From Sphaerolaimus hirsutus (taxonomy: Eukaryota > Nematoda > Chromadorea > Monhysterida > Sphaerolaimidae): a stretch of 64,000 nt of DNA. A program made the translations under genes and the position numbers. The notes under the pieces were generated by a model. The model was given only the letters and a program-made list of their open reading frames with translations. It ran no database searches and was not told where the DNA came from. Every line of letters begins with the position of its first letter. Within the stretch, counting starts at the first letter, position 1. Below are positions 11,801 to 14,800 of the stretch, piece after piece. Location of the stretch: assembly GCA_964036195.1 (NCBI GenBank), contig OZ038451.1, forward strand, positions 13,520,529 through 13,584,528, in the 5' to 3' direction.

Positions 11801-14800
11801 TGTGACTATTTTTTGTTGGGAAGTAAAGCTGAGGTTGTGATAAGACGATAATTTAGATTGTCGGTTTTATGTAGGGTTCAAACGGGATTGACTTTTCGGG
11901 ATCGGGATCGGGATCGGGATTCACTTTTTGAGATTTCGGGATCGGGATCGGGATTGGGGTTTCGGGATCGGGATTGGTTTTTTGAGATTTCGGGATCGGG
12001 ATCGGGATTGGCCGGGATTGGGGTCACGGGATCGGGATCGGGATTGGGATAGGCATTTTTCCGGGATCGGGATTGGGTTCTAGGGATAGATATTTTGGCC
12101 ATTTTTCTGGCATTCACAGTTGATCATAAAGGTCTCAAAACACTGTTGGATGCCAGAAAAGCGGCATAAAATTGACGCTGGGGGTTTGCATCCACTTTTT
12201 TGCATGCAAAAGCGTCATTATTTCACTTTTTATAATTTCCACTAATTTTTCCGGGATCGGGATCCCGGACTTGGGAGTTTCTCGGGATCGGGATCGGGAT
12301 TTGAAAACTTTCGGGATCGGGATCGGGATTGGTATTTTTGAGATTTCGGGATCGGGATCGGGATTGGGGTTTCGGGATCGGGATCGGGACTGGTAAATCC
12401 CGGAATTTCACGGGATCCGGGATCGGGATCGGGATCCCGTTTGAACCCTAGTTTTATGATGTCGATATTTCGTTCTTTTCGATTTTCCTTGTCAAAAGTG
12501 TTTGTTTGTTTCGTAGATTTTTTCAACCCCTATCTATTTTCAGGTGGATGGAGGAGCACAAAAATGACCACGTTAATCAGGATGATGAAGAAATAGAATA
12601 TGATGAAGATGGAAACCCACTCTATTCATGGAAAAGGGTACGGTTTTTCAAACGTTTTTTAAGATCCCCTTGTTACTAGGGATGACCGGTGTTTTTTTAA
12701 CCGACCTTTTTTAAAAAAATGTTTAAAAAACAGAGGCATCGAAACCGGGGTTTTTTAAACAGCCAAAAAAATTTGTACTTTGCACTAGGTAATTTGCATT
12801 TTTTGGGCGTAAGCAAGCAATTTCACATACACTCTACCATTGTTGGTTGTTTTCATTGGTTTTGAGGCATTTTTAGTGTGAAAGCTTCCATTTGTTCATG
12901 ATATTGTGTAATAAAAAGCCGTGATATGTTACTGTGGTATATATTTAATATCCAGCCAATGTGCTCACACATACTTCTACAGTGTGATTCACCACTGGCA
13001 ATGGATTAGCGTTCTATTTTAACCTTATACAAGTGCTTTTCCATGCAAAACTTGACTTGAAGTCACGAACATTTGACAAAATGCGATATACGTAACAATT
13101 CGACAAAAATGTATATTTTTGACAAAAACCACCACTTATAATGCTATCCCATGGCTCCACAGCCATTCTATGGCTATATTTAAGATCACAAAATACTGGC
13201 AATAGTGTAATATACCTGTATTTGTTGACTCATATCATAACCATATTTGGGAGCTTTAAAAAACTGTTTTAAATAAAATAAAACAAATGTTTTTCAAACA
13301 GGGTCGTTAAAAAAAACATTTTTTGGCCATCCCCACTTGTTACGCAAAAATGCCGCAGGTTATCGACCCCCTGCCGGCAGTAGACCACGACACTATTGAG
13401 TACGATTCATTTAATAGAGATTTTTACACCGAGCATGATGATATCAAACAGTTGAATGAGTGGCAAGTTGATGATCTTCGCAAAAAACTGGGCATCAGGG
13501 TGATTTTTTTCTCAATTTTGAAACTTCAACGTTTTGCTGATTGTGTGTCTAAAAAAATTGTTCTTTCATTTTTTAAGGTGGGCGGCGTTTCACCACCGAA
13601 GCCGGTATCCAGTTTTGCACATTTCGGCTTCGATGAGTACATAATGGCAGTTGTACGCAAGGCTGAGTTCTCTCAGCCCACGCCTATACAGGCACAGGTA
13701 ATGATCAAACTGCCTTCGATGATTTCATGTGCATGAATTTCATAAAAGTTCTCAAATAGACCCCCTCTAATATACCCTGCCATCGAATTTAGCCCCCCCC
13801 CCCTTCAAATTTTGCTGGCGAATGAGTAAACCCACAGGGGTTATTTCGAGGCAAAACAGTATTTTTGCTTCCTCTGATATTACTGTAATAAACAGTTATC
13901 CTGACAATAGTATTTCTGTAATAAAGACAGAGTTGCAGTTGCGCTGAGAGTTTTCGCCGTTCTTATCACATTAAAATAAAATGTGATAAAGCCACATTTT
14001 CACACCCAAATCAGTACCCCATTCAACCCTCACAGGCAATTCCATGTCTTTTAAGTGGGCGAGATGTTGTGGGCATTGCAAAAACTGGCAGTGGAAAAAC
14101 AGCCGCTTACCTATGGCCTGCTATAGTCCACCTTGCAGATCAGAGACCGCTTGCACAGGGGGAAGGACCCATTGTACTGGTGTGCGTGCCAACTAGGGAA
14201 CTGGCTATACAGGTGGGAATTTTGACAGAGTTGGCAAAGTGGAAAACTGGTTTCATCGTGTTCTGATGGAGGATTGAAGTGTCACTTTTCGAAAAGTTTT
14301 TGTGGCATGCTAGATATTCTTTGATCTTAATCGTTATGGGTTTTTTTCGGAATTATTATTGAAAGTATGTGCGAATGAATGTGTTTCGATTTTAAAAAAA
14401 CAATCAGATTAGCACCCGTGGTTTAAAAAAGTGCCATCCTCAGTGTGAAGTGTCGAAATTCATACGCTGTCGGGCGCGGGGTGCGACAACCTTTCCTTCA
14501 AAATACACCCAACATAATTCTTTCCCAGGTATACAACGAGGCTCGTAAAGTGGCTAGATGCTGCGGTGCCAGGGTTGTGTGCGCTTACGGGGGCGGCAGT
14601 AAATGGGAACAGACTAAGGCGCTGCAAGCAGGCGCGGAGATCGTCGTTGCCACGCCTGTTTGTTTTCGTTTTATTTTTGGGGTTGATTGTGAACTCTCCC
14701 GGGGGGCCCGAGGCGGGGGTTGCATCGGCGTAAGTAAACCCCCAGCGCAAGTAAGCTCTCAGCGCAAATAATCTTCTCCCAATCGGGAGTTTAGTTAATT

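Follow-up and report, generated by a model that had tools for sequence, protein, structure and literature searches.

Word-filled hAT-like elements of Sphaerolaimus hirsutus: three internal words under one terminal tip

Elements of the window

The window analysed here is a stretch of 64,000 nucleotides (C2:13520529-13584528) of the Sphaerolaimus hirsutus assembly, which was searched over its 348,482,957 bases and 762 contigs. It holds a split helicase gene, in which a Pfam search located Helicase_C at 17543-17926; positions 20457-20897, with no Pfam match, look by eye like a further helicase exon. The element at 18447-20385 lies between helicase-like coding stretches, and a fragment of Pao retrotransposon peptidase (PF05380) was found inside it, within 19854-20258. 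On the reverse strand, a 664-residue open frame at 55364-57358 is reverse-transcriptase-like by eye and gave no Pfam match. The CpG observed/expected ratio of the window is 1.00, indicating no CpG depletion.

Three elements of the window share the terminal inverted repeat (TIR) TAGGGTTCAAACG, as the original prediction had claimed. The element at 11872-12450 (579 bp) contains 39 copies of the word CGGGAT, called word A; its TIR matches at 13/13 positions and it is flanked by an exact 8-bp duplication, GTTTTATG, at 11864-11871 and 12451-12458. A more decayed word-A element at 41923-42248 (326 bp) has a TIR match of 11/13 and an exact 8-bp duplication, GTTTTGAG. The third, at 33638-34571 (934 bp), carries 55 copies of CGATAT/ATATCG, called word B, with a 13/13 TIR and the exact 8-bp duplication CATGGCGC. 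It includes on the forward strand, at 34041-34123, a remnant of a hAT transposase C-terminal exon (tblastn, E = 2.9e-6); the query was a word-B exon from locus L049, searched against the 34 sampled elements described below, and the coordinates were converted. This word-B element, with its CATGGCGC duplication, is inserted in a stretch of GGCGCC words (window positions 33560-34700), so that the GGCGCC element is the older one here. In 30 dinucleotide shuffles of the window, exact 10-bp TIRs with 8-bp duplications gave a single match in total (mean 0.03), and 12-bp TIRs with one mismatch and an 8-bp duplication gave none.

Elements outside the TAGGGTTCAAACG group are separate families with other tips. 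An element with the tip TAACGATGGCAA and ATTCGAAA words lies at 8186-8993 (8-bp duplication CTGAGCAC), one with the tip CAGAGTTGTTA and TACG-type words at 59035-59817 (8-bp duplication GATATCTC), and one with the tip TAGTGATGGAAAA and GGCGCC/GCGCCA words at 1255-1476 (8-bp duplication CACCTGGG). The tip TAGGGTTGG accompanies AAACGTTT words at 40500-41183 (8-bp duplication GTAGTAGC) and is also found on two relatives of this element, at 14829-16612 and 54007-54631, whose duplications both match at 7/8 positions. The element at 18447-20385 has the tip TAGGGTGTCAAA, CGGAAAACGG words (CGGAAA 33 times forward, 0 reverse) and an imperfect duplication, 5/8, which by eye becomes 7/8 if moved by one base. 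At 1978-2277, GGCCGCGGACACGAA words lie between the ends GGTATGAGCCCATC and GGTTGACACCCATC; owing to its 9-bp duplication, CATTCTAGT, and its GG-starting ends, this element is Mutator-like rather than hAT-like and leaves the group in which it had been placed, with a start near 1977. Exact 8-bp duplications, announced for most of the listed elements, flank 7/11 of them. The claimed relatedness of the termini holds for the tips starting in TAGGGT, and not for TAGTGATGG, TAACGATGG and CAGAGTTGTT, which share little beyond the general hAT form. The short TIRs of hAT elements start with the consensus (C/T)A(A/G)NG: TAGGG, TAGTG, TAACG, CAGAG and CAGTG tips fit it, and the ends of 1978-2277 do not.

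Two more elements with 8-bp duplications were seen at 21447-21906 and 61410-61855; their tips are of the CAGTGGCGTAGC or CAGGGACGTAGC type and their sub-termini contain G runs. Such elements also occur in L008, L009, L014, L023 and L027. No obvious CpG-type word was found in elements 31221 and 42459, whose top words are without CpG. With the CpG ratio of the window, this led us to discard the idea of a methylation code based on a CpG in every word.

Genome-wide census of the tip and its words

Exact matches to TAGGGTTCAAACG number 15,514 in the assembly (7,752 + 7,762), as compared to 5 + 3 for the reversed pattern used as a control. With two intact ends per element, this would amount to some 7,750 elements. 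The letters following the tip divide most of these ends into three classes. The tip is followed by GGAT at 8,581 ends (4,287 + 4,294; word A), by ATAT at 3,241 ends (1,630 + 1,611; word B, CGATAT) and by GGAC at 2,549 ends (1,281 + 1,268; word C, CGGGAC), with 0 control matches for each. Several words under one tip had been predicted, and these three account for 14,371/15,514 ends (92.6%). The expectation of many words per terminus is borne out as far as three main words, and no further: C or T follows the tip at only 162/15,514 ends (84 + 78). A fourth word under TAGGGTTCAAACG was rejected on this count, a minor one being possible among the up to 981 ends (6.3%) that continue with A or G but not with ATAT, GGAT or GGAC.

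Duplications were assessed in a sample made of 20 stretches of ~9.9 kb, five 3-kb loci and the window; the stretches are uninformative on density, because they were chosen for containing the tip. The 74 exact tips of this sample yielded 31 pairs of adjacent tips facing each other; for 8 5' ends there was no partner of this kind. Before any filtering, the flanks of 23/31 pairs are exact 8-bp duplications, as was anticipated for copies across the genome and as is typical of hAT target sites, while 3 pairs match at 7/8, 2 at 6/8 and 3 at 4/8 or fewer positions; five shifted controls reached at most 6/8. The hAT target preference is nTnnnnAn, and in the 28 exact duplications T at position 2 or A at position 7, symmetrised, was found in 29/56 cases. 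Pairs with a duplication match of at least 6/8 and at most 3 tip mismatches were kept in a table of 34 elements (19 A, 7 B and 8 C), from which L003, L005 and L007 were left out as they overlap L002, L004 and L006; two of the 34 overlap each other (L023:1368-1819 inside L023:1233-2138), and some A words are counted twice. The sampled elements measure 100-1357 bp. Being short, present in high copy number, bounded by TIRs and duplications and devoid of a complete transposase, they are MITEs.

Each sampled element keeps almost entirely to one word. The A elements contain 577 A words against 14 C and 1 B, the B elements 255 B words and no others, and the C elements 175 C words against 1 A and 1 B. 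An element can hold up to 72 word copies, and the arrays differ in length among copies. Orientation is nearly uniform as well: 530 words point one way and 47 the opposite way in A elements, 161 and 14 in C elements, and the counts of CGGAAA in three CGGAAAACGG elements are 33/0, 18/0 and 0/30. One opposite word was seen by eye at the right tip of 17/19 A elements. Since the A, C and CGGAAAACGG words nearly all run in one orientation, the two ends of an element are not mirror images beyond the tip. Full or near self-complementarity is seen in the B, ATTCGAA, AAACGTTT and GGCGCC words. The claim that it holds for most words does not apply to CGGGAT, CGGGAC and CGGAAAACGG, all three being direct repeats, and palindromic words were abandoned as a general rule. 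A G-quadruplex role of the GGGATC/GGGACC arrays was also discarded, B words being without G runs. One word-A element, L010:4393-5749, appears by eye to be built of three tandem modules of arm plus core.

The A/C scaffold and the transposase exons

Elements sharing the tip had been thought to differ completely inside. This proved incorrect: A and C ends align with each other, and B and C elements hold related transposase exon remnants. The best A/C pairs found by blastn reach 75.9% identity at one end (166 bp aligned) and 75.2% at the other (153 bp). Over the 100 nt beyond the tip, the mean identity of all sampled A/C pairs is 69% and 67% at the two ends, as compared to 63% and 59% for A/B; the sampled B/C pairs reach 53% and 47% and gave no convincing alignment. 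A single A/C pair, L022 and L020, was analysed in detail over the first 170 nt of each end. Out of 31 A units, 22 are aligned with a C unit, 9 with a unit of neither type and none with another A unit, and in this pair the switch always concerns the same letter, CGGGAT against CGGGAC. Identical columns amount to 44/58 and 31/50 in the spacers and, with the switched letter counted, to 83/106 and 87/111 in the words. The alignment score was reached by 0/200 spacer shuffles at each end. Between A and B, a short (G/C)ACTTTT-CG spacer is common to one end and 4/200 shuffles reach the observed score; given this weak score and the lack of a convincing B/C alignment, B can be linked to the A/C scaffold only tentatively.

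Mosaic arrays were considered as intermediates between A and C and rejected, as mixed runs mostly occupy one fixed place in A elements. In the sampled sequence, 15 A/C runs are mixed and 214 pure, and in 14/15 mixed runs the last unit is of C type, with TGGTAAATCC, TGCTAAATCC or a near variant coming next. One C-letter unit is found at a fixed place near the right end of 14/19 A elements; this unit was either inherited from a C-type ancestor or has a special role. The first 100 listed of 7,318 four-unit arrays, all from the start of contig C1 and hence not a random sample, were classified by eye as 56 pure A, 35 pure C, 8 TTTC and 1 CCTC.

The profile of the hAT dimerisation domain (PF05699) gave 28 genome matches, all over the cut-off. 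In a first sample, the 3' side of 16 stretches beside such matches was read, and 15/16 lead into one of four words together with the tip that belongs to it, L043 showing none. Seven contain CGGAAAACGG words and GACACCCTA (L033 among them reads GACGCCCTA), three ATATCG words and CGTTTGAACCCTA, three ATTCGAAA words and GCCATCGTTA, and two TACG words and AACTCTG. These word/tip pairs are those of the window elements 18447, 33638, 8186 and 59035, and together with the 8-bp duplications they support the predicted assignment to hAT. Three of four further exon stretches carry a lineage's words, L048 being without them in the first 1,000 bases viewed; another 16 comprise 10 with B words, 1 with CGGAAAACGG words and 5 with neither (L056, L064-L067), four of these five being interrupted by other insertions, as judged by eye. 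Exon-bearing relatives exist for elements 18447 (L029/L050 and others), 8186 (L038, L039, L042 and L069) and 59035 (L031, L032+L068 and L045). Word A was found beside none of the exons in the 36 stretches read 3' (16 + 4 + 16), out of 28 + 90 matches. C-word elements contain a shorter exon remnant, homologous to but different from that of B (L023:3710-4505, L070, L071). A search with the C remnant gave at least 150 matches (150 of 244 candidates scored), and, among the matches listed, all 6 of those situated below 11.26 Mb on contig C1 are enclosed by C-type tip pairs. C-word elements, in high copy number, have retained a few dozen codons from the end of a transposase gene. Transposase-bearing elements with the same ends and words, whose search the original prediction had suggested, do therefore occur, as far as the C-terminal exon goes; C is represented by its remnant only, and A by none of the stretches read.

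The exons that go with the different words differ as well. Protein identity is 53% over 62 residues for B/CGGAAAACGG, 59% over 22 residues for B/C, 42% over 24 for C/CGGAAAACGG, 40% over 65 residues for ATTCGAAA/TACG and 27-38% for B or CGGAAAACGG against ATTCGAAA or TACG, while pairwise comparison gave no alignment of the C remnant with the ATTCGAAA and TACG exons. The B, C, CGGAAAACGG, ATTCGAAA and TACG words thus go with different C-terminal exons, 27-59% identical where aligned, and with different tips, B and C alone having theirs in common. The supposed mobilisation of all the elements by one transposase family is therefore not supported.

By eye, the copies read at both ends contain the C-terminal exon only and are flanked by duplications: GTTGTGAA for a CGGAAAACGG copy on contig C4, ATCATGCT for L069, CATGGTGC for L068+L032, ATCTCAAC for L070, CATGTGAC for L071, and 7/8 matches for B copies on contigs C9 and C6. 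Some B-word relatives have other tips (TAGGGTTGGGACG in L053, TAGGGTTGGAACG in L052, TAGGGTTCGGACG in L055), so that the tip drifts too. The zf-BED profile (PF02892) gave 8 genome matches, of which 7 lie within ~214 kb of contig C1 (7.466-7.680 Mb). PF14372 gave 0, which says little since control genomes also gave 0. Profile searches of the assembly with PF05699, PF02892 and PF14372 and the stretches read revealed no full-length transposase: autonomous members of these families may have died out in the assembly, or the transposase core may be too diverged or intron-split for these searches.

Interpretation of the word switch

Subterminal word arrays bound by transposases are known from other hAT elements. 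Herves transposase binds CG/AATTCAT, a synthetic (CGATTCAT)4 array being enough for binding (PMC3143072). Ac transposase binds AAACGG hexamers, three copies of which were shown to be required (PMC3260210). The BED fingers of Hermes bind the left-end subterminal repeats, a quasi-palindromic pair being bound cooperatively, and do not bind the right-end repeats (PMC10368747). CACTA elements combine conserved tips with diverging subterminal words, and co-evolution with the binding protein has been raised for them (PMC2613891). Given these precedents, the original statement that the general pattern had no description is too strong.

Like Ac/Ds (AAACGG), Herves (CGATTCAT) and Hermes (AAGT-type STRs), the present elements have 8-bp duplications, short tips and a repeated subterminal word, and their word-matched copies include the hAT dimerisation domain. 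The Ac hexamer AAACGG (PMC3260210) is even contained, maybe by chance, in the CGGAAAACGG word of the TAGGGTGTC family. In contrast to these three systems, the words here fill much of the element, come as three under one exact tip and keep a near-uniform strand orientation element-wide (three non-palindromic words counted). Soybean CACTA (En/Spm-type) elements Tgm1 and Tgmt* also kept their 13-bp tips while the motif diverged within one genome (PMC2613891). However, CACTA is a different superfamily, with a 3-base duplication; Tgm1 and Tgmt* differ at 6 positions of a longer motif, compared with one letter of six on an alignable scaffold here, and by exact-match counting our 13-bp tip is identical in all three word classes. 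Maize Ds1 and Ds-like elements are likewise non-autonomous, have chiefly the tip and a number of hexamers in common with the autonomous element and in some cases contain transposase fragments, but no word switch is described in the part of that work drawn on here (PMC3260210). A literature search of titles and abstract openings, weak as evidence of absence, returned no description of three words under one exact hAT tip or of a one-letter switch across an aligned array. On the best reading, the elements are deletion derivatives filled with transposase subterminal binding sites, which are of a known kind; what makes them unusual is the coordinated word switch under one tip.

We propose that the elements probably belong to several hAT lineages, as non-autonomous members that have undergone internal deletion and are filled with the putative subterminal binding sites of their own transposase, and that in the TAGGGTTCAAACG group the words were switched under a kept tip. 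The tip would be the part read by the catalytic part of the transposase, and the word array, in the subterminal regions and much of the element, would offer a row of docking sites to its DNA-binding finger, each hAT lineage carrying its own word. The TAGGGTTCAAACG group would have split into the sub-lineages A, B and C, which kept the tip and changed the word throughout the element, A and C differing by one letter while the rest of their scaffold was conserved. Most simply, A and C would be explained by a change in the specificity of the finger, which the words followed unit by unit; the tip, as the target of the catalytic part, would have remained constant. The words fit a docking role, as they are short, repeated, adjacent to the tip, matched to the transposase lineage and, between A and C, at least as conserved as the spacers. 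Because no full-length transposase was found, we infer binding and co-evolution, and the place of B on a shared scaffold is likewise tentative. Hermes and Ac need few sites, so that the filling of whole elements calls for another reason. Nor need the words equal the working sites: some maize Ds1 elements without the hexamer still move, Ds-like elements with it were immobile in the reported test (PMC3260210), and the right-end repeats of Hermes are a further exception. The proposal is also weakened by the copies read at both ends, which carry the C-terminal exon only, by the absence of A words, although they form the largest class, beside the exons of the 36 stretches read, and by elements such as 31221 and 42459, in which no obvious CpG-type word is present.

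A single transposase might instead read only the tip TAGGGTTCAAACG and move A, B and C alike, the words being passive filler made uniform by slippage and gene conversion. The sharing of the 13-bp tip by all three classes fits this idea, as do the absence of an A-specific exon among the 36 stretches read, the internal duplication seen by eye in some elements (L010:4393-5749) and the mobility of some Ds1 elements lacking the Ac hexamer (PMC3260210). However, slippage would disturb the spacers between units, which are conserved, and passive filler accounts poorly for the identity of A/C word columns relative to spacers and for words nearly all in one orientation. Moreover, C retains its own, diverged exon remnant, and in the other lineages word and transposase exon change together. 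We therefore regard a transposase reading the tip alone as unlikely.

In the original prediction, a new subfamily arises when a sub-terminal word is amplified locally, and anew each time, under an unchanged tip. Array length does vary between copies, and the L010 element, by eye, is made of tandem modules; yet the A and C arrays lie at the same scaffold places, unit against unit, the word differing in place, and exon-bearing copies of other lineages already have their word at both ends where both were read. Amplification, to which we give a low probability overall, is weakened for A and C and could still apply to the origin of B relative to A/C, as these scaffolds barely align. Directional mutation of C-word elements (C to T in one context), with no selection on binding sites, is very improbable, for although the A/C difference is a C/T transition and the fixed C-type unit of A elements fits an ancestral C, the C-C-G context persists in A spacers (e.g. 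TTTCCGGGATC, by eye), the expected other-strand changes were not seen (by eye, one aligned pair), the window is without CpG depletion and B is left unexplained.

Returning to docking words switched under a kept tip, we put forward more tentatively that A, B and C could form a natural set of orthogonal transposon address codes, with the same cutting tip and with docking words rewritten in every unit after a change of the finger, each sub-lineage thereby escaping the transposase of the others. If this is true, the contrast between A and C would preserve the recoding of one letter throughout an array of many binding sites. It is an open question how a transposase can shift its specificity in step with dozens of dispersed sites, and here thousands of copies stand on either side of such a switch in one genome, with alignable scaffolds and the same tip. 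This system would thus allow direct tests of the order in which the changes occurred, of what the tip does and of whether the codes are orthogonal. In practice, such elements should be sorted by word and tip, and not by tip alone.
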